Shown one piece after another: positions 11,250 through 35,975 of a stretch of DNA of 64,000 nucleotides. Within the stretch, counting starts at the first letter, position 1, and each line of letters opens with the position of its first letter. The stretch lies in the NCBI GenBank assembly GCA_030295235.1, contig AP026125.1, positions 1 through 64,000 on the forward strand, in the 5' to 3' direction. A model generated the notes under the pieces. The model was not told the DNA's origin and made no database searches. It saw only the letters and a list, made by a program, of their open reading frames with translations. Position numbers and translations under genes: made by a program. The DNA comes from Fistulifera solaris. Taxonomy: Eukaryota; Bacillariophyta; Bacillariophyceae; Naviculales; Stauroneidaceae.

Positions 11250-12217
11250 TGTTGCCGATATTGTTACTACCGAATTACCCCCTGCTGAACCTCCTCCCGG
11301 TCTTTCGGTTACTTCACATACTGTCCCCAAGTATACTACCCATTTTCCGCGACTATGTCCCTATTTTGGCTGGATCACCAATGACGTCAGTGTCCTTCTC
11401 CGCTTCTACTTAGGGCAGAGAGTACCAGTACTCTATGTGCGTGGCAATTATTGTTTTCCTTCCGAGTCCCCCGGCAGTCATGGGTTACAGTGTCAATATT
11501 TCTGAGCATGTTTGCCCCACCCTGTCCTGGGCAATACTTACTTCGGATCCTCAGCAAGTAATTGTTCGCTCCCAGGTCCCTCCCTACACTCTGGATGACC
11601 CTACTTTGCGCCGGCCTCTGACTGACGAAGAGTGTTCGCGATTTGTCCACTCCAGTTGTACAATCTTGTACATCCGCCCTTGAAGTGGATCCTGATGCTA
11701 TTGCTGATATCAGTCCTCCCGACGCCGCTGTCAGTCCTCAAGTACAGACTGCTACTTATGGTTCAATTTATTGCAGCGAGAACGCGGCGTTGAGCAGATC
11801 ATCGATCTCCGCAATACACCGCGATATTTAGGGGTACTGATTCGGCGAGAAGGCCTACATGTTTGGGGATAATGAGTCTGTTGTCAACAGTGCTACCATG
11901 GTACAAGCAAAGCTACACAAGAGACATACTATGCTCTCTTTTCACCGTGCGAGGCTATTAAGGCCAGGAATGGTTGCATTCTTGCAAGCAAACATTAGGG
12001 TTATTCGCAGATATGGAATCGCTTATACTTTTCTGGACTGGAGACACCGCAGAACTGAAGAACTGAAGAGTACTAAGTACTACTTTGGGTTAGAGAGATA
12101 TTTGTTTAGAGAGAAATGCATGTGTTAGTGATTAGGATTTAGGAAGAAAATGGAAGACCTTCGAACGAGAATGCGAGTCAGTTATTGCAGCCGCCGTGCC
12201 TTCGAGAAGACGGGGAG
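11250..12217 (+). pseudogene. Copia pol remnant, deleted interior to RNase H end
   Basis: Continues the copia interior after the gypsy insertion. About 11250-11430 reads PRLCPYFGWITNDVSVLLRF, weakly like sequence upstream of the copia integrase. From about 11775 the RNase H end appears: EQIIDLRNTPRYLGVLIR, then MFGDNESVVNSATMV and KLHKRHTMLSFHRAR. Integrase and most of RT are lacking. Multiple frameshifts. The 3' end leads into the purine tract and LTR at 12218. Confidence 0.72.
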
Positions 12218-12965
12218 TGACAATTTTCTTAGCAAGTTTGAGTCATGTTAGTGACTGATTTTCCATAGTATTTGTGTAGTCTACTACTTATACTACACAA
12301 CGATGGTACACCGGTATTGCTATTTAGACTTCGACTGTCTATTTGAAGATAGAGTCACTTGGATACCATTCGGAGTTATTTGAAGTTGCAGTTACAAGGT
12401 TTGGATACCGTTGAGAGTGCAACGTCGACAATTTTGCAGACGTGGACATGTTTCTTCTCTTGCCACGACTGACTGTCACGTAGACCTTCAGTACATTTCT
12501 TACGTGTCGTAGTCAACCCACGGAAGCCTACGGAGCTATGTTCATTTTCTACAGGAATTCAGTACTTGTTTTCTTTGCCACCTCAGCACAAGTTCCTGAA
12601 GATTGGAGAAAGGTGTGCAATCATTTTCCATTAGAATAGGTCTCATAAAAATATAAAATTAGAAATCAATCAATCTATACCGAGTTTACTGAGTCTTCTT
12701 TGTGTGGTGAAATTCTCAAGGTCACAAACCTTGCGAGTCGATCTACATCCTTTGAGTCCAGGCAGGCAGGCAGTGAGTAAGTACGTAACAGGCGCACTGT
12801 GTGGTTGTCTTTGCTGATCATTGCAATCAAAGAGTGTTTGCGATATCAGTGCTTTCGCTTGTCAGTTGATCATCTCATCAAAGAGTGTTGAGTTGGTTGA
12901 TTGTCGCCTTTGCGTGAGGGTATTCCGCATTCGAATTCGTGAGCTATCTGTGCTTCGGAATTTCT
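12218..12965 (+). repeat. Copia 3' LTR, abutting ClpP
   Basis: The second copy of the 2497-3255 LTR, starting TGACAATTTTC after GGGGAG. It matches to GGAATTTCT at 12965 but lacks the final GTCA of the 5' copy, so its last four bases are lost or changed at the junction with the ClpP gene. Confidence 0.85.
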
Positions 12966-16643: not shown

Positions 16644-17153
16644 TTATTCGTATCCACATGTAAGTGTGCAGTTTGTGAGAGAAGTTCTTGCGCGAAGCAT
16701 GATGTAGCAATACCAGTCATCGCCGATACCTCGGATCTCACAGCTCTCGGGCGCGTTTCCTGCCGATTCAGCTACACATTCATATTCAGCCGCGTCGTTC
16801 CAGTCATTGAGGAATTCCGGATAAATCCAGTAGCCTTCGTAATCTGTCATGTACAAGTTCACATTACCATCCTGACAACTGACCTCACAAGAGCAAAAAT
16901 CGCGTCGATTATCTGAAGGAGCCAAATAATACAAACGGAAAAGACCGAGAGGCAGAGCCGCGATTTCCGAGGTTTGTCCTGATTCCAGCAAAATACCTCG
17001 CTGCGGACCGTTGCATTGATGCAGCATGTTGCGATCAAAGAGTGTTTCGAAGTTGCTATTGTAAACACCGAACGTCGCAGCGACAAAGAGCAACAATGTG
17101 CTTCCGAGAGCAATCATTGTGCGGGAGATCTTTCGTTCTGGTTGCGCAGTCAT
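16644..17153 (-). CDS. Membrane-anchored Cys-rich protein, PPC-like fold, copy 1
   Basis: 169 residues, uninterrupted. Residues 12-30 (MIALGSTLLLFVAATFGVY) form a single N-terminal membrane anchor or uncleaved signal; the rest carries nine Cys, including F-C-S-C-EVS-C, YECV, ESCEI, WYCY and a terminal pair. The order (N/D)-(V)-(N/D)-LYMTD, YEC, (E)-SC-I, then a closing strand ending GY resembles bacterial pre-peptidase C-terminal (PPC) beta-sandwich domains, a resemblance I infer from memory only. Probably lumenal or secreted because of the Cys content. A paralog lies 735 bp upstream on the same strand. Function unknown. Confidence 0.75.
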   Translation of the reverse strand: MTAQPERKISRTMIALGSTLLLFVAATFGVYNSNFETLFDRNMLHQCNGPQRGILLESGQTSEIAALPLGLFRLYYLAPSDNRRDFCSCEVSCQDGNVNLYMTDYEGYWIYPEFLNDWNDAAEYECVAESAGNAPESCEIRGIGDDWYCYIMLRARTSLTNCTLTCGYE

Positions 17154-26294: not shown

Positions 26295-26807
26295 TTATTC
26301 TCCAGGCATTTTTGCCTTTGTTACTCCCTCAAAAAATCCTTCCAACCCGTATGCTGAACATACAACACGAATGCCTTTCGAGATACGATGCTGTTCATTC
26401 TCTAGTTTTCGCAAAAGCTGAACTTGCTCCTCGTTCACCTGCCTAATTGCAGTTTCAAGCTCCTGATTCAAACGATCCGAGACATCTTCTGTCTTTTTAT
26501 CAATATCTCTCCTCCACCTTCGTGCCTCCCAAAATCTTTCGAAATCTTGCTGCGCTACGCGAAATTCTTCAGTGATGGCTGCGTCTATTTCTGCCGTTGT
26601 TTTCTTATACGCACTAAATATTGCCTCGGATCGTGCTTCCAGTTCGTTGAAACGTTGTTGACCTTCCGTCTCCACCTTTTCTATGAGAAAGACAAGGGCG
26701 CTGCGCAGCGCTTCTAAATCATCGCTTTTCAATTCCGGATTCTGATTATTGTCGTTGTCGTTATAGATCCCGTAAAAGGCCGGTGGAACTGGACGTCGGA
26801 CGTTCAT
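26295..26807 (-). CDS. FYGIY-family coiled-coil protein 1
   Basis: 170 residues, intact, no recognised domain. Near the N-terminus it has VPPAFYGIYNDNDNN, the hallmark shared with four other genes in this window. The middle is charged and helical (about residues 35-150, heptad-like, Glu/Arg/Gln-rich), and the C-terminal part ends in a (V)-x-x-A-x-G-(W/L) element, here VVCSAYGLEGF. No signal peptide or membrane segment. Closest to member 5 (shared RRDID-K and RLNQEL-type segments). Convergent with PP1, 205 bp away. Function unknown. Confidence 0.75.
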   Translation of the reverse strand: MNVRRPVPPAFYGIYNDNDNNQNPELKSDDLEALRSALVFLIEKVETEGQQRFNELEARSEAIFSAYKKTTAEIDAAITEEFRVAQQDFERFWEARRWRRDIDKKTEDVSDRLNQELETAIRQVNEEQVQLLRKLENEQHRISKGIRVVCSAYGLEGFFEGVTKAKMPGE

Positions 26808-28768
26808 TGTTGTTTACGGTGTATTCTTTACGAAAGAAACAAGAAGTTAGTTGTTGTTCTTTGATGTCATGATCATCGTCGTCTTTTGCTTTTACAGCCA
26901 TAATGAGGTGTAGCTTCAGTACATTTTTACACAAAACGTCTTCTACACGCCAGCCGGCCCGTCGCGGAAGAAAAAAGTCTCACTATTTTATCGCCAAAAA
27001 ATGATGAAAGTTTGACAAACGCTCTGTAACTTGATTTGCCGTATTTCGCGACTGAACTACACCATTTATCCTCTTTATTTACCGCTGACATGGGTGGTAT
27101 TATTTCCGTCGCGAAATCCGTTGTTCTTGATACGAAAAATTGAAGCCGAAAATATATGCCTGGTCCTCGGTTAACCATTTTGTTTTCGCTATAAAGCAGA
27201 TAAAAGAAGTGCTTAGAACATGCTTTGCAGTACCATAACTCGTAGCGCCAAAAAGGGAACTGTTTTATTAGAGTAATTCGTCCAGGGCTACGAATTTCCG
27301 TGCTGAGGCACAAATTTATATGCGGCGAGCCGAAAGTATCCTGGGTCATTTTCGATCGCCTTTTTCTTATAAAAATAACATGAAGAGCGACTAGCGACTG
27401 ATCATGGATAGTAAATGTAAAGCATAAGCACTTCGCAAGTTTTATTTGATAAATGTGTTTATCGTCGATCCCAAAGGTTCGTGAAAGGTTGTTCCGTCGA
27501 TTGCACTCGTTTTCTGTCCAGTCTGATACTTACTTTCGAAGGTAGAGTGAAAGCAACCGGTTTTAAAACTTAATGGATTTCTTGGCTACACTTCACATCA
27601 TCCATTTCCTAAGTATAAAACAAAGATTACTACTTAAAAATTGGAAGCAGACGACAGATTGAAGTTTTGCAGATAGATGAGCTCCACCAAGTGCCGCGCG
27701 ATGACGGAAGAAACTCGTCCGAGTAAGTTTAAGGTCGCAGCATAAGAAATAAAGGACGATAAACAATGCTCCAAGTCCGTATAAACCACTGGTGACAGTC
27801 AGTTCATTTTCTTTCTTACCAGGTAGCGACATTTTCAAACTAGCCAAGAAATTCTGTCCTATGCGTATAAAGTGCCATAGAAGCAGTCGTCGTGCCACCC
27901 GAACGAGTGAGAAGAACCATTTATACGTTGATTAAAAGGCTTGGAGTACAAACAAGGACGTATAGTTGCGCTTATTACGCATATGAGTCAACGAAAGATG
28001 TGATGATTGCTGCAAGAAGAAGAGCAGCCCTCGAGGAATCGGTCGACACACAACTGCGGGCACAGGATATCTGCCTACGCTTAATTACAAATGAATAAGA
28101 GTCTATGAACGTTTTCAAAGTTCACAGGGATGCTTCATACTTTGTTTAGGGATATATTCTGAGAAGATTTGTGAAAATTGACGACTAAAAAGAAAAGTTA
28201 TTTACCTATTTGTCCCCTTAGCTCATCCCCCGTAAAATTCCCACTTTCTACTTCATAGTAAAAATATGGTTGGTACTCGTCTACGTAGTCCTACGGCTCG
28301 ACTACGACATGCGCAGCCAACTGTACCAGGTATCGTCTTCGTTTTGGTAACCGGCGAAGGCCTGGTGACGTGATTTAATAAAACTTTAGTCCCGACCGAC
28401 ATCGACTTTATTTTGCGTCTTGTCGCGCAAAAGTCGATACCATACGTAGTCTCTAGTAGAGCGTAATATTTATGAAAAATGAATTTAGTTCGAAGTTGGT
28501 AGTCAGAAGGCGTTTTGGGCTCTAATCGGTTCTATCACCTTATCTTAGTCGTCCTCTAACTCTCATAATTTTGAATGATGCGAGTTCGAGGCACCAAATT
28601 CTCTCGTCTAGATTCACCTTCTAATGAGTTTTCAAACAGCTCGCTCTCTCTTGCCTTTCTCTTTTACAAGACTTCACATGCACACAGCAACCATCGAAAG
28701 TAGCGTCTTAGCCGCTCAGCATTCTTTCCCCATCTGCTCTGTAGAAATGAAAACCTCCGCAGTTACCA
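26808..28768. other. Long gap with only doubtful open frames
   Basis: About 2 kb. Minus-strand frames at 26927-27349 (140 codons) and 27593-27898 (101 codons, with one hydrophobic stretch GLYGLGALFIVLYFLCCDL) and a plus-strand frame at 27892-28098 show no family motifs. Any could be a small gene or a decayed copy; none can be supported. Confidence 0.35.
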
Positions 28769-29288
28769 TTACGATGATTCATCATCAGACGACTCGTCGG
28801 GGAACCATCCATAGGCATCCAGTACAACAGCAAGATCAGCTGTAATGTCATCAATTCTATTGTTTGTCTTGCGGATAAGCTCATTCCGATGTTCCGCTAG
28901 TTCTCTTACAGTTTTTTCGACAACATTGTTAGCCACTTCAAGTGTATCGTTCGCTTTCTTCATAATAACATCTTTCAAATGCAGCGCCTCTTCATATGTG
29001 CATTTGTCTTTGTTCAAGTCGCGACCCAATTGTTGTCGCTCTGCTCTGGCTACCGATAGAATTTCCTCCTTCTTCCTTTCGAATTCCGCCATTATACTTT
29101 CCACTTGTTCATCCATGACAATAATACGTGCCCGACAATCCATCTGCGCCGCCTCAACAAGAGAATACGCTGCTTTTTCCAAAGCTTCGACTACACCGTC
29201 CGTCAGAGTGTTCCAAAATGATCCTCGTCATCGTCATCGTCATCATAGATGCCGTAAAACGGTGGGGGACCTCTTGTCGCGTGCTCAT
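28769..29288 (-). CDS. FYGIY-family coiled-coil protein 2 (frameshifted)
   Basis: Start ATG at 29288 (MSTRQEV). A missing C in the CCCCC run near 29268 would give VPPPFYGIYDDDDDDEDH, and a second shift near 29216 leads to TDGVVEALEKAAYSLVEAAQ and the rest of the open frame to 28769. About 172 residues. It has a helical charged middle and the family C-terminal element VVLDAYGWFPDE, ending in acidic DESSDDESS. Both shifts sit in or beside homopolymers, so a sequencing cause is likely, but pseudogenisation of this copy cannot be excluded. Confidence 0.65.
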
Positions 29289-30003
29289 TTCTTCATCCAT
29301 TTGCACAGTTAATCCTTTTTATCTTCTGCTGCAGCAAATTCTCCTTTAAGCTGTTGAAGTCTTTGTCATTCATTTCGTTCATTTTGTCATCATTGCATCG
29401 CATTTGTTCGCAATGCAACAATAAATGCGAGAAAACCGCTTGTGACATTTGCGACACAGAATGCGGTACTAAGAGTATATCAGAAATCAACTATTCAAAA
29501 TTCTGCTTAGGTACACTTGTGACGTTGGGAATACCGCATGCGTGGCACGAAAACACTATACTCAGAAATAATAGAAGCACGTTTGACAATACTGCACCTA
29601 AAATTACTCTATAGAGTGCATATACTCCATGCTTGTTTATCTTTTATTCTAGATTATAGCCATCATCGAATCTAAAATTTTCTCTTATTTTATATCTTTC
29701 GACACCCGAAATGCAACTCTTATGACTCGAAGACCCTGTCTGCGAGGCCAAGGCTCGATTGATTTCCCAAAGGCGAAGTTGCGCAACCTCATAAGCTAGA
29801 TATTTATGCCGAATCGAGATCAAACAATCGATAGCTTCTTGTAGCATTTGGCTTTTAAGTCGACTAGAAAGGTTGCAACATTAGACGGAATATCCGGTAG
29901 CAGAGTTGCTAGTGCGACAGCCTTCGCCGACCTTGACATTGAAAGACTTTTCGCTCGTCGATCTGATATTTCTGTTATCCGTAATACAAAAGAGCGATTG
30001 CGA
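29289..30003. other. Gap with a possible decayed coiled-coil fragment
   Basis: 715 bp. On the minus strand, 29644-29847 and an overlapping frame upstream (to about 30000) together read FLVDLKAK then MLQEAIDCLISIRHKYLAYE, helical in character, but they lack the FYGIY motif. This may be a decayed family member or chance. Confidence 0.3.
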
Positions 30004-30513
30004 CTAAACATCAAACTCATTGATATCAAAACCGTGCGCATTGATTACCGCATTGAGATCCATTGCTACGTCATGAATTTTAAGGTTGTTGTCTTCAATT
30101 AACTGATTCCGCTCCTCCGTCAACTGCATGGCCGTGAACAACATATCGTCAACGTCTTCTGTAGAGCCTGTCTCTATGCCATCCCCATTGTCGTGATCAC
30201 CGTCGTCGTTATCGTCCTCTGCAATGCTGGGTGAAGCATTCCAGAGCAGTTGCACGGCTCGTTGGAATACGTTGTCGGTTTCCGAAGAAAGAGTGCCGGT
30301 GTCTCTCCGACAGGATGTTAGAATAGCCATCAATCGAGTCTCCAAAGGAGATATTTGATCTTGAGTTTTCTTTTGGATGGCATCAATCATTGCAAATGTG
30401 GCTTTATGCAAAATGTTCATATCCTCTTTCGTGAAGCGCGGATTGTCGTCGTTATCATTGTCGTTGTATATTCCGTAAAACGGCGGCGGCACCTGCGGTC
30501 GCTCGTTTTCCAT
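30004..30513 (-). CDS. FYGIY-family coiled-coil protein 3
   Basis: About 169 residues from the ATG at 30513, chosen because it places VPPPFYGIYNDNDNDDN nine residues in, as in the other members; the frame is open upstream to 30594. The middle has an acidic insert (DDNDDGDHDNGDG) and helical segments. The end carries AVINAHGFDINEFDV, the family C-terminal element. No other domain, signal or membrane segment. Same strand as the other four members, next to member 4 (312 bp apart). Function unknown. Confidence 0.72.
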   Translation of the reverse strand: MENERPQVPPPFYGIYNDNDNDDNPRFTKEDMNILHKATFAMIDAIQKKTQDQISPLETRLMAILTSCRRDTGTLSSETDNVFQRAVQLLWNASPSIAEDDNDDGDHDNGDGIETGSTEDVDDMLFTAMQLTEERNQLIEDNNLKIHDVAMDLNAVINAHGFDINEFDV

Positions 30514-30825
30514 TCTGTTACACTGTTCTTCGTTGATGTTGGAACTGATAGAGGTTTTGATACGCATAACACATCCATTCGAAGGTGAAAGCATTTTTGT
30601 TGAATGAGAGCTTCATTTTTTTTTTCGGCAAAGTGCTGAAATGCCACGTACGACGTACAGGTCTTGGTTTTAGGGGAGGGCTATATAGCTATTCCTAGGT
30701 ATAGGCTATTAAGCTACTCGTATATAGGCTCTCTAGGGCTAGGGCAGGGTGAGGAAAGACGACAAAAGGTTTTATTCTAAAATAAAATACTAGAAAAACC
30801 GTCATCATGTAGCAAAAACTCGATA
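30514..30825. other. Intergenic between FYGIY members 3 and 4
   Basis: 312 bp with a T10 run near 30617 and a CTATATAG-rich stretch around 30680-30735 (several TATAGGCT-like units). It presumably contains the member 3 promoter. No gene. Confidence 0.4.
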
Positions 30826-31335
30826 TCACTCGGCATTATCGAGGTTTTGAGAAAACAGGCGAGCCATATCGGGATGGGTCCAACCGTGTGCCGTCATTAC
30901 AATTGTCAAATCCAGTATGATTTCACGGACTTTGTTGTCGTAGTCAAGCATCAACTGCTCACGTTCTTCTTCAATTCGCCACAACACAACAAGCAGGTCC
31001 TCAAAATCGTCTTCAGTTTCGACTACAATATTGTCCGCTTCCATCTCAATAAGATCCGACGGAACATGCGAAAATTTCTCTAGAGCCTCTTCAAACATTA
31101 CGGGATCGCCAGTAAACCGTTTCAACGCAGTCACAATGCCCATCATTTTTGGCTCCATAGGCGCAAAGTGCGCTAGCATTTTCTGGCGCGCAGCTATCTC
31201 CATGGCACAGGAGGCTCGATACAAGACTTCCAAATCATCTCGAGTGAATTCGCTGGGCTCATCGTCATCGTAGATGCCGTAAAACGGCGGCGGGACGTAG
31301 GGTCGGTCCTCCAATTCTGGGTCTTCTCTTTCCAT
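30826..31335 (-). CDS. FYGIY-family coiled-coil protein 4
   Basis: 169 residues, intact. N-terminal YVPPPFYGIYDDDEPSEFTR; helical middle with Met and acidic residues; C-terminal DLTIVMTAHGWTHPDMARLF, the clearest copy of the AHGW element. No signal or membrane segment. It shares the leading acidic/Arg segment (EDPELEDRP) with member 3 (ENERP). Function unknown. Confidence 0.73.
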   Translation of the reverse strand: MEREDPELEDRPYVPPPFYGIYDDDEPSEFTRDDLEVLYRASCAMEIAARQKMLAHFAPMEPKMMGIVTALKRFTGDPVMFEEALEKFSHVPSDLIEMEADNIVVETEDDFEDLLVVLWRIEEEREQLMLDYDNKVREIILDLTIVMTAHGWTHPDMARLFSQNLDNAE

Positions 31336-31700
31336 CGTAAAGGATCCGCGGAGCTATGTCGATAAACGTTACTTCGAGACACCAAAGTTCAATGGTAAAG
31401 GATTGTTACGGATAGCATCGAAAAGAATTGTGTGAAGTTTTGATGCACCGAGAGGCCGAGGAACGCAAAAACCAAAAACAGCTAAGGTTACGACTCATGA
31501 CTTAAGCCAGTCGTGGATAAAATCGTCTACACCTTGGTACCATAGTAAATTTTTGTGAAGCCGATTTCGATGACGCAGGAAAAAAGAAAAAGAGGGACAT
31601 TTTCATTTCTGATTTGCTCTCTCCGTTTCTTCATTTTGACCATTATCAAATTTTTTCTCTTTGTTATTACAAATCTCTTATTTGTCAATTCACGGCAACG
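31336..31700. promoter_or_regulatory. Divergent intergenic region FYGIY4 / fusion enzyme
   Basis: 365 bp between divergent starts; no defined element recognised apart from T/C-rich sequence at 31600-31680 upstream of the plus-strand start. Confidence 0.35.
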
Positions 31701-33433
31701 ATGACAGATCCTACTTCTTCAAAGATTACCGTCATTCACTGCTGGTCCGCTCCCCGCAGTCGCTCGACGGCTCTTTTGTACAGTTTTGAAGCACGTGACG
31801 ATTGTTGTGCCCTCGATGAACCGTTATATCGACAATGGATGATCGACAATCCGCAAATCCCTCGGCCTTATCGTACAGAAATGATCGAAGGAGCACCGGG
31901 ATGGGAAAAGGAGCAGCTTTCTTTGTCGGATCGACTGCAAACGGCGATGAGTCGTCATCGAGTCATTTTTGCAAGCACATGGCAAAACATGCTCCGCAAT
32001 TTGATTTCAAGCAATATCCCGACACGGAAACGGTTCGGCACAAACATGTCTTGCTCATCCGCGATCCGGTCGCCGTCTTGTCGTCGTGGAAACAGTCTTC
32101 GGAAGTGCACGGCGAAGACATTCCGACCGCATCGGAGATCGGGTTGCTGGATTTGTTGCAAATTCATGCTGCCGTTTCCAATGCAGCTGTCGTATTGAAT
32201 TCCGATGGTTTAGTACAAAATCCGCCGCAAATACTCAAGGAACTTTGTGATTCTTTGAATATTCCGTACACCGAGCAAATGATGCGTTGGAAGAGTGGTC
32301 CTCACGAGTGTGATGGACCGTGGGCGCCATGGTGGTATCACCAAGTCCATCAATCGGTCGGCTGGAATGAATCAAATCACACTGAAACGCGTTATCGTAC
32401 GGTACCCGTTGAGTTTCAGCCCTGTCTGCAAGTGAGTTATGCCGCGTATCAGTATTTCATGACTTTGCAGAAACAACCCGTGATTCCCTTTGAATATGAA
32501 GATCCCCGCAATGCCCATTTGTTAGTGTATGTCGGTACACCGAGTCGCGGAGGACGCTTGATTCCAAGAATTCAAGCCGGTATCAGTCCGTGGGATTCCT
32601 CTGTACAAGGAGGAGATGCGGTTTGGGAAGGGATTCGTGTGTATCGCGGCAAATTGTTGCATCTGGATCAACATTTGCGCCGTTTACTCAATTCCGCCAA
32701 GGCTTTGGGATTCCAACAGGTCCACACCAAAGAACAGATTACACAAGCGATCTTTCAGACACTCGCAGCGAACGGTATGCGGGATGGTGCTCACATGCGT
32801 TTGACCTTGACACGCGGCGAAAAGTATTCCAGTAGTATGAATCCTGTCTTTAACGTGTACGGGACGACGCTCATTGTGTTGGCGGAATGGAAACCGACAC
32901 AGGGACGTACCACGTACGACAACGTCAAAGGTGTATCACTCATCAGTGCAAGTCAGCGGCGCAATTCTCCCAATACGGTCGACTCCAAAATTCATCACAA
33001 CAACTTGATCAACAACATTTTACCCAAAATTCAAGCCAATTTGGCCGACTGCGCTGATGCGATCATGCTGGATGTGGATGGTTATGTTGCGGAGACGAAT
33101 GCTACGAATCTATTTCTGGTGGACCAAGATGGAGTTCTGGTAACACCGTCTCCGGATCATTGTTTGCCCGGAATCACACGCAACACGGTTTTGGATTTAG
33201 CGCGCGAGTTAAACATTCCCATTCAGGAACGTCGGGTTAGTTTGGCGGAATTCCATTTTGCAGAGGAAGTTTTTACGACAGGAACCATGGGTGAATTAAC
33301 ACCCGTGACCTGTATTGATGGCCGTGTAATTGGGAGTGGTGTTCGCGGTCCTATTACGACTCGTTTACAAGACGTGTATCAAACCTTACCCGAACGGGAT
33401 GGTTACGCCACGGCCATCCCTGAGTTTTACTAG
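31701..33433 (+). CDS. Sulfotransferase / class IV aminotransferase fusion protein
   Basis: Two enzyme domains in one chain of about 577 residues. Residues 1 to about 260 are a P-loop sulfotransferase: 5'-phosphosulfate loop CWSAPRSRSTALLYSF near residue 15 and a 3'-phosphate strand LLIRDPVAVLSSW near 118. From about residue 272 a fold-type IV PLP aminotransferase (branched-chain/D-amino acid type) follows: GGDAVWEGIRVYRGKLLHLD, the PLP-lysine region DSKIHHNNLINNIL (about 429), YVAETNATNLFLV, PDHCLPGITR and EEVFTTGTMGELTPV. One T is missing in T5 at 31976-31980, joining the two frames. The start could also be 29 codons upstream. Substrates unknown; coupling of transamination and sulfonation is inferred. 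Convergent with the GH10 gene. Confidence 0.85.
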
Positions 33434-33477
33434 AGGCTTGTACTTTTATAACCTTAACCTGACATTTTGACTTTGAA

Positions 33478-34769
33478 TTAAACCAATAAATGGTCGTCAG
33501 CACCACCATTTTCGTTGTCATTCGTTTCACTCAACAAATCTGTCGGCTCTATTACGGATGCTACACGTCCTGCGTCTTCTTGTTCCCAATCGGGCCGTGC
33601 ATCACTCTTCTGTGCACCCTCTACTTCGTCTTCTGGTTCCGGTAGCATCCACTCGTGTCCCCACGTATTTCCATGGACATCCACGTCTTCCTCCAGCAAA
33701 ACACCATTTCCTACGACACTTCCCACACCAAACGATGCAATCGCTTCCCGTAACGCGTAATAGGCTGGTTTTCGTTGATACTCTTCATCGAAAATTAAAG
33801 GCTGATCGTCATAATAAAAGTGCGACACCCACGTATGTTTGTCGGTAAACCCCCACAACCAAATCCCGTCGCACGAGGGTTCACTGAGTGCGGCGACGAC
33901 TAAATCATGATAGATTTGTTTTTGCGCTACCGTCTCTAGTACAGGATTCTCCAAACGACTCGTTCGGACATCGACCTCACTCAAGTTGACGGTCAATCCC
34001 AAATCTCCAAGGCGACGAATTTGCTGTTTCAGCATGCGTGGTGTGGGTGGACGATTCCGACCGGTTCCGGCCGCATTGAAGTGTCCTTGCATGCCGCAAC
34101 CGTGAATGGGGACCTGTTTCGCTTTCAAATCCGCCAGTAGGTGATAAAAGGCATCACCTTTCGGCGTATCAATAGCTTCCACTTTATTGTCATTGTATAA
34201 AAGCACAGCATCCGGATCGGCTTGATGCGCCCATCGAAAGCATTCTTCGATATACGACGGACCCAATTTTTGCAGAAAGATGTTTTCTGCTAAACTCCCA
34301 TCGGGCGCGAGGGCTTCATTCACAACATCCCACGTCCGAATTCGTCCTCGAAAATACCCCATGACCGTACAAATATGACGTTGTAATGTTCCCGCAATTG
34401 ATCTGCGGTCAATTGCTGCAAACAAGGAGGACTCGTGACATGCCACACCAACACGTGTCCCTTGATTTTCTTATGATGTTGCAAAGCCCAATTCACGACA
34501 ATATCTGCCTGCGTAAAATCATATTGTCCCAAACATCGAATGTCATTGAGATCATTTTTACCTTCTCCTAACAACGGTCCCCATTTCAGGTCGTGTTCGA
34601 CGACAATCGCATTAAATTCACGTTGGAGGGTCGCCTTATAAAGGGACTCGGCTTGCAAGGGTTGCTGTAACACAGCGGTTCCGATATCGATGTGTTTGCA
34701 AGCGCGGGATGCCGCATGCGATAACGAATGATGATTGTTGTTGTCCTTGTGATGATTGTTGCGTGTCAT
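33478..34769 (-). CDS. GH10 glycoside hydrolase (endo-1,4-beta-xylanase type)
   Basis: About 430 residues. GH10 barrel motifs: AIVVEHDLKWGPL, KIKGHVLVWH, the acid/base Glu in TWDVVNEALAPDG, YNDNKVEA, GCGMQGHF, the nucleophile Glu in VNLSEVDVR, and IWLWGFTDKHTW. A 1-nt deletion at AA 34386-34387 (QLREH then LQRHICTVMGYFRG) splits the frame. The N-terminus (MTRNNHHKDNNNHH) has no signal peptide, unusual for a xylanase; a missed upstream exon is possible. The tail of about 70 residues is acidic and not part of the barrel. Cleaves beta-1,4-xylan-type polysaccharides by family; the real substrate is unknown. Confidence 0.85.
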
Positions 34770-35447
34770 TGCGTAAAAAAAGAAATGAAAAGACTAGGAA
34801 ATCAACAAAGATAAGTTTTGTTGTTTGCTGCAAAATGGGCGTAACGAAAAAGATGACTTCATTTGTAGTGTCGCATCGGCTTAAGACTTACGTAACGCGA
34901 AACGTACAAGTATGTCAAGAACCACTGTGGAACAGCTTGTAGGTCAGGACTGAGACATGAAATCTAGTCCCGGAGGAAAGTTTCTCACACTTTGAGATCA
35001 TAATAATAGTGCCTTGCGAGAATCTAATCCGGGATAAATGAGCCATAAACTTGGTGCCTACTCGAAGAAATGTCTAGGTTTAGCTGGCTTCGAAGAGAAA
35101 CTTTTAGAAGAAAAGAGGGCGGCTACAGTGAGATGCGCAAAAACTCGGTATGGATTTGAAAGTTGATCGAGTAGTACCGGGTAGACTGGGAACGATCCTC
35201 TGACACTCTTTGCGACCTAGTCTAGTAGATATCGATGTCATATAATAAGGAACCCTACAATTTTACGGAAGTTTATGCTAGTTTCATTGTCTACAGAACC
35301 AACACAGTTCAACAAGGACGTTATAGACAAAGCCGTTGACACGTCCCCGCAATCGATTCGAGTCGGAAATTGAGTCGCTAACTCATTAATCTCAAAAAAG
35401 CTTTCGTAAACGTAGAAAAACAGCACGGTCGTTGTCGACGACTCTTA
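34770..35447. other. Intergenic region
   Basis: 678 bp between two minus-strand genes, with no open frame worth calling. It should carry the GH10 promoter (or a missed first exon) and the 3' flank of FYGIY member 5. Confidence 0.4.
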
Positions 35448-35975
35448 TTACCCGGGCAGTGCCAATCTTAGTCCGGCACCCGGAGGAATTTGCCATCCGT
35501 GCGCGGTAAAAACAATATGAATGTCCTCTTCAATACGATCGGCGTCATCACGCACAGCTGTGAAGAGCTGTTCTCGCTCCTCCTCCATCTGAATTTGAGC
35601 ATCTTGTAACTCCTGGTTTAAACCTTCAGTAGCATCGGCGTTCTTTTGATCAATGTCCCTCCTCCGCTGATATGCCTCCCCATCTGTAATCTTGCCGCTT
35701 TCCAGATCAGTCTGGACCATGCGAAGCTCTTCAGTCTTCATTACTTGTATTTCTATAACTTTTTCCATAAACGAGTCAATGATAGCTTCTGATTTTTCTT
35801 CAAAGTCTGCGAGCAAGCGCTGACCGTTCGCCTCCGATGCCTCCAAAAGAAACAGAACAGCCCTTCGCAGCGCATCCACGTCATCGCTACTCAATTCGAA
35901 ATTCTGATCGTTGTCACCATCCTGATAGATACCGTAAAAGGCAGGTGGAACCTGGCGTAGGCGTAGGGCGTTCAT
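35448..35975 (-). CDS. FYGIY-family coiled-coil protein 5
   Basis: 175 residues from the ATG at 35975; the frame is open further upstream but similarity to the family begins here. N-terminal QVPPAFYGIYQDGDNDQNFE; long charged helical middle with QRRRDIDQKN and LNQELQDAQI, closely matching member 1; C-terminal DIHIVFTAHGWQIPPGAGLR. Separated from the other four by the fusion enzyme and GH10 gene. Function unknown. Confidence 0.74.
   Translation of the reverse strand: MNALRLRQVPPAFYGIYQDGDNDQNFELSSDDVDALRRAVLFLLEASEANGQRLLADFEEKSEAIIDSFMEKVIEIQVMKTEELRMVQTDLESGKITDGEAYQRRRDIDQKNADATEGLNQELQDAQIQMEEEREQLFTAVRDDADRIEEDIHIVFTAHGWQIPPGAGLRLALPG

Follow-up and report, generated by a model that had tools for sequence, protein, structure and literature searches.

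A tandem cluster of five genes for small FYGIY-motif proteins in the diatom Fistulifera solaris and its incomplete counterpart on a putatively homoeologous contig

The window analysed here, the whole stretch of DNA under study, comprises the first 64,000 nucleotides of contig AP026125.1 (assembly GCA_030295235.1) of the diatom Fistulifera solaris, and the contig is designated C5 below. Between positions 26295 and 35975 of the window, five paralogous genes for small proteins are located on the minus strand. They are numbered 1 to 5 and share a front motif, VPPxFYGIY. The family they form is real and its type familiar: it evolves fast, is arranged in tandem and has no assigned role. It ranks above a repeat artefact and below a new system. 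The members and their places are as follows (aa, amino acids).

26295..26807, minus strand: gene 1, 170 aa, frame intact; FYGIY codons at 26763-26777
28769..29300, minus strand: gene 2, two frame breaks near 29260 and 29210; FYGIY codons at 29245-29259
30004..30513, minus strand: gene 3, 169 aa, frame intact; FYGIY codons at 30466-30480
30826..31335, minus strand: gene 4, 169 aa, frame intact; FYGIY codons at 31270-31284
35448..35975, minus strand: gene 5, 175 aa, frame intact; FYGIY codons at 35925-35939
Contig C6, about 12159-12389, 12698-12901 and 16744-17145: places of the family revealed by protein search

The original prediction, made from the letters of the window, had listed five minus-strand genes for proteins of about 170 residues. 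Four of them are intact at exactly the coordinates given and specify 169 to 175 aa, but the frame proposed for gene 2, 28769-29288, is filled with stops and is not one open frame. The front of this gene, FYGIY and the body are found in three different frames. The body frame, 28769-29203, is open for 144 aa, or 137 aa if counted from a TTG, and the ATG at 29300 is the likely start of the gene. For gene 3, the frame continues open upstream as far as an ATG at 30594. The N-terminal sequence VPP(P/A)FYGIY is present in four genes as predicted, and the fifth, gene 2, reads GPPPFYGIY within its broken frame. The C-terminal element A-(H/Y)-G-(W/F/L) was detected in all five.

To define the extent of the family, the genome (51.7 Mb, 61 contigs) was searched with the five proteins, each run singly. 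This search scores the best candidates only, exon by exon; the counts are lower bounds, and strongly diverged or split copies could escape. With the gene 5 protein as query, the other four copies of the window were obtained with expectation (E) values of 1.4e-33, 2.6e-10, 1.9e-7 and 5.7e-7. The nearest paralogue of gene 1 is gene 5 (46% identity, E 6.4e-34), and that of gene 3 is gene 4 (E 1.7e-20). The body of gene 2 matched gene 5 with an E value of 1.5e-7 and genes 3 and 4 with values of 0.06-0.14 only, a pair similarity that is not significant alone. As a set, the relatedness of the five genes is real and beyond chance. At E ≤0.001, matches in the whole genome were restricted to the five genes of the window and the three C6 places given above. 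Apart from the family, a single match was listed, on contig C26; its E value was 1.5, and it was discarded as noise.

Two pattern searches gave the same picture. The pattern PxxFYGIY/F was matched six times in the genome, by the five window copies and one on C6, with no match in the reversed control. A looser FYGIY-type DNA pattern yielded 14 matches, with one in the reversed control. Eight of these 14 belong to the cluster or its C6 counterpart. The other six lie in stop-rich frames, four of them in copies of one repeat, and were rejected as extra members. By the protein queries and the two patterns, tandem paralogues are confined to one genomic locus besides the C6 places. The tandem location is borne out, the five genes neighbouring each other on one strand.

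To follow conservation along the protein, the four full proteins were compared in pairs and matches were counted in blocks of ten residues. The front end of gene 2 was excluded from protein alignments and substitution counts owing to the frame breaks. Residues 11-20 are by far the most similar, with 43 of 51 pairwise matches (84%). Lower values were found for residues 1-10 (26/52, 50%), 21-30 (24/60, 40%), 31-40 (26/60, 43%), 131-140 (30/60, 50%) and 151-160 (28/60, 47%), and 12-30% identity for the remaining blocks. The proposed outline of fixed ends and a diverging middle is recognisable, with one strongly fixed block, but the other end blocks are moderate and the last 15 residues are without conservation. 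FYGIY itself is carried by every copy, the five of the window as well as the three that the protein search revealed on C6. The codons for Gly, Ile and the final Tyr of the motif differ among the copies, in a listing that was itself compiled using the motif. VPPxFYGIY is followed by an acidic run.

Structure prediction by AlphaFold suggested a helical hairpin with a disordered, FYGIY-bearing front. For gene 5, helices were predicted at residues 30-93 and 98-158, with a predicted local distance difference test (pLDDT) value above 90 in blocks over residues 61-130 and below 50 in residues 1-25. For gene 4, the predicted helices comprise residues 32-75 and 108-149. Inspection by eye, with no predictor used, revealed neither a signal-peptide-like stretch at the N-terminus nor a transmembrane stretch. 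Because no such N-terminal stretch was seen, the site of action is probably the cytosol or the nucleus. A Foldseek search, done with the gene 5 model only, gave no meaningful fold match. It listed generic helical proteins such as Vipp1, PspA, PI3K p85, BAR and axonemal chains. Its first row, Smac/DIABLO, has an E value of 0.2, a root mean square deviation of 22 and a template modelling (TM) score of 0.20 and is not weighty.

That no known family had been recognised in the proteins was borne out in the libraries searched, no weighty match being obtained in Pfam, NCBIfam, PHROGs or PDB. The matches that did appear were weak, helical and mutually inconsistent. In Pfam-A, none of the four full proteins scored above any listed curated cut-off. 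The body of gene 2 and the piece from C6 were judged by the best E value per family, none of which fell below 0.0015, and no Pfam family was matched by more than one of the six members. In NCBIfam, gene 5 remained below all three listed cut-offs, its FliH score being far below; for the other five members, the lowest listed E value was 0.00063, for FliH, which was matched by two of the six members. The best PHROGs E value for the four full proteins was 0.031. Among PDB sequences, gene 5 alone gave no match at E ≤1, and the best match of a six-member profile was a designed protein (E 0.073).

Prokaryote sequences, scanned with one query, and viral sequences, scanned twice, revealed no relatives. 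Five stretches of the viral contigs fitted a pattern derived from gene 1, and none was confirmed. The sole motif-pattern match on a viral contig, L027, reads PAFYGIYQEMGTSRG...HPYLRPA and was rejected as an unrelated frame, which we take to be of the phage tail-protein type. The gene 4 query fitted a pattern in 24 stretches of genome_contigs, one of which was confirmed, on L028 from a metagenome-assembled genome named uncultured Clostridia. This match was taken as chance; it sits at EAHGWTHPDM, in a frame with HPHDDH which presumably specifies a metallo-beta-lactamase fold. Two readings of the front motif were not adopted, both sequences being short and frequent by chance as judged, not computed. 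One is F-x-x-I, the Atg8-interacting core, resembling an LC3-interacting region, and the other is PPFY as a WW ligand, present in genes 2-4 only. A literature search for the FYGIY motif was without match, and nothing on the family was found. Since library scans and literature search gave no match, the family appears to be undescribed.

Comparison with C6 revealed an uneven distribution of the genes. Positions 1-40000 of C6 align with 14189-57648 of the window. Eight blocks of more than 1 kb are collinear with 77-87% nucleotide identity, and a few short matches are inverted or displaced. From this arrangement, we infer that C5 and C6 are homoeologues. F. solaris is reported to be allopolyploid, with 42 homoeologous chromosome pairs and 75% overall homology (PMC5935921). 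The homoeologue of gene 5 is located at C6:16669-17160 and has one frame break near the C-terminus. Genes 2 and 4 are each represented on C6 by a front-end fragment only, and nothing corresponds to genes 1 and 3 where they would be expected. Synonymous divergence (dS) among the paralogues is at or near saturation, with a whole-gene minimum of 1.08 for gene 1 versus gene 5, whereas the homoeologue dS is 0.27-0.39 for five neighbouring genes and 0.50 for the gene 5 pair. The duplications therefore predate the split of the subgenomes, so that loss on C6, not gain on C5, is the simplest account. G+C content is higher on C5 in five of six aligned blocks, the edges of which are rough. For 38 of the 42 pairs, the chromosome with the higher G+C content in paired genes is reported to retain more of the unpaired ones (PMC5935921). 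The C5 excess agrees weakly with such retention, the blocks including non-coding DNA.

Substitution rates were first considered for homoeologues. The C5 and C6 copies of gene 5 were compared over 161 codons, either side of the break included, with stop codons and overlapping tblastn pieces skipped. A non-synonymous divergence (dN) of 0.27 and a dS of 0.50 were obtained, giving a dN/dS of 0.54 (0.62 before the break, 132 codons, and 0.30 after it, 29 codons). All five neighbours gave values of 0.07-0.17, and the non-synonymous excess of gene 5 over them is strong (Fisher p 6e-14). The pair is nevertheless below neutrality (p 0.007). If the C6 copy is a pseudogene, its own decay supplies part of the excess. 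The rate covers gene 5 alone, genes 2 and 4 having only short fragments on C6, and the rapid evolution that had been proposed for the family is supported to the extent of this one homoeologue pair.

For the paralogues, the proportions of non-synonymous and synonymous differences were compared (pN/pS). Over whole genes, the ratio was 0.58-0.76. Because it was below 1 in all ten pairs, the family is under weak purifying selection overall, and this, not adaptive change, seems to lie behind its rapid divergence. In the front 25 residues, pN/pS was 0.33 for genes 1 and 5 and 0.37 for genes 3 and 4 (Fisher p 0.014 and 0.028). Beyond these residues, constraint was detected as well, with p values of 4e-4 and 1e-6 for the same pairs. 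The regions compared comprise more than eight codons each and end before the last 15 residues or so.

The significance of the frame breaks depends on the quality of the assembly. In two strongly constrained neighbours, the sulfotransferase-aminotransferase gene (C5 31614-33433, dN/dS 0.075) and a glycosyl hydrolase family 10 (GH10) gene (C5 33478-34769, dN/dS 0.07), a one-base length difference breaks the frame on C5, and the frame is whole on C6. The assembly may therefore contain single-base errors, although the differences in the two genes may also be real mutations. The break in the C6 copy of gene 5 could be such an error. With single-base errors possible, reads would be required to call gene 2 on C5 or the gene 5 copy on C6 a pseudogene. 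Errors of this kind have no bearing on the truncated state of genes 2 and 4 on C6 or on the lack of genes 1 and 3 there. As to the sulfotransferase-aminotransferase gene, sulfotransferase-like and class IV aminotransferase domains are present in one frame at 31614-33433; its front part shares this frame on C6, but is in a separate one on C5.

Our preferred interpretation, to which we assign a probability of about 0.38, is a small, old, tandemly duplicated and fast-diverging diatom family of motif-docking adaptors or scaffolds with helical-hairpin arms. A disordered front of about 25 residues would carry VPPxFYGIY and be followed by a long helical hairpin, which would vary in sequence and length toward its tip. 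The motif and the acidic run may constitute a short linear site at which one partner common to all copies docks. The hairpin may serve as a dimerising or partner-binding arm, different in each copy. The proteins would act as adaptors or scaffolds. That one hub recruits different partners via the paralogues, an invariant docking motif being combined with diversified hairpin arms in an undescribed combinatorial scaffold or recognition system, appears improbable.

A number of observations weigh against the adaptor interpretation. The AlphaFold models reached predicted TM scores of only 0.53 and 0.55 from an input of only five sequences, and long helices are an easy default for structure prediction. 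Hydrophobic periodicity was significant in just two of four helices (permutation p <0.05; periods of 3.6 and 3.3). Of the charged helical coiled coil proposed originally, the helical character is reproduced by AlphaFold, but the coiled-coil periodicity only in these two helices. The upstream regions of the five genes, with the gene 2 region anchored four bases before its ATG, gave no sign of a shared promoter motif, as words of 8-10 bases never recurred in three or more of them. Shared shorter words barely exceeded those in shuffled sequences, with 34 versus 27.5 for 6-mers and 6 versus 3.0 for 7-mers. As assembled, none of the five members is complete on C6, which weighs against a strong claim of a gene system, and given the loss of most of the set there, a full second dose is dispensable.

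The absence of complete members from C6 leads to a rival explanation which is doubtful in itself and yet nearly as likely as the adaptor model. The genes could form an orphan family that was functional in the past but is dispensable and now slowly decaying, with selection largely relaxed, kept by chance on C5 and already dismantled on C6. The dN/dS of 0.54 for gene 5, compared with the low values in five of five neighbours, would fit this explanation, as would the frame breaks of gene 2 on C5. However, four frames on C5 have stayed open, though pairwise just 42-61% of their aligned nucleotides are identical. When unconstrained substitution without insertions or deletions was simulated at 30% of sites, 0.5-1.3% of the copies remained stop-free, and 2.7% at 20% of sites (gene 5 only). 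In the gene 5 pair, moreover, changes are less frequent at non-synonymous than at synonymous sites (p 0.007), and some of the frame breaks may be assembly errors, as the breaks in the sulfotransferase-aminotransferase and GH10 genes occur only on C5, the C6 frames being whole.

It is unlikely that the genes descend from a known helical-hairpin family as a diverged branch hidden from sequence searches; PspA/Vipp1-like, BAR-like and tubulin cofactor A-like proteins or kinetochore and centrosome coiled coils would be candidates. The closest approach to PspA was PF22743 (PspA-associated), with an E value of 0.0016 in one protein and 19.1 bits versus a cut-off of 27, and long helices commonly score so. 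PspA/Vipp1 differ from the family in that no sequence match above cut-off was obtained. Even less probable is a recognition or conflict system in which adaptive change drives the variable middle. The front is fixed and the tip of the hairpin variable, with pN/pS up to 0.98 at the tip (genes 3 and 5), and copy number differs between the homoeologous contigs, as such a system would have it. But pN/pS never exceeded 1 in the tested regions of the ten pairs, which end before the last 15 residues or so, and no secretion signal or transmembrane stretch was apparent by eye. A brief adaptive phase could be missed, paralogue dS being mostly saturated.

Among known systems, taxonomically restricted (orphan) tandem families are the most similar, although for the FYGIY genes the restriction to one lineage that had been proposed originally is putative. 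They likewise consist of small proteins of no recognised family encoded in a co-oriented tandem cluster, diverge fast and are unevenly retained across related chromosomes. The FYGIY family differs from them in that its duplications are older than the subgenome split and one motif is almost fixed. Smac/DIABLO, a helical bundle presenting a short linear motif near the N-terminus, serves as a comparison of the way of working only, the likeness being a helical protein with a short motif near its N-terminus. The inhibitor-binding N-terminal tetrapeptide of the Smac type is AVPI, and by eye no such tetrapeptide is present in the four translated proteins as read from the genes.

An allodiploid diatom provides a natural test of which genes tolerate losing one parental copy. 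Here, one chromosome has kept an unnamed cluster of which the other has lost or truncated the greater part, amid neighbours present on both. If the genes are expressed, they would define a family of helical proteins that has not been described and is marked by a short motif with sharp limits. If they are not, they would be a clear case of a fast-evolving tandem family lost on one side of a hybrid genome.

Two further observations concern other sequences of the window and the genome. Genes 1 and 2 are separated in part by a region of about 1.42 kb (26906-28325) with 93% identity to C19:192145-193582. Two portions of this region also match contig C1, at 389322-389628 (80%) and 390711-391085 (78%). 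It is probably a non-autonomous mobile element, judged from these repeated copies; no clear terminal repeats were seen in it. Finally, as befits a diatom, the silicon transporter family is represented in the genome by 23 matches, all above the cut-off, compared with a single match, below the cut-off, in 14 control genomes. Some of the 23 hold stops as assembled. Many occur in pairs on contigs such as C15/C16 and C23/C24, matches are also present on C27 and C29, and some are adjacent on one contig.

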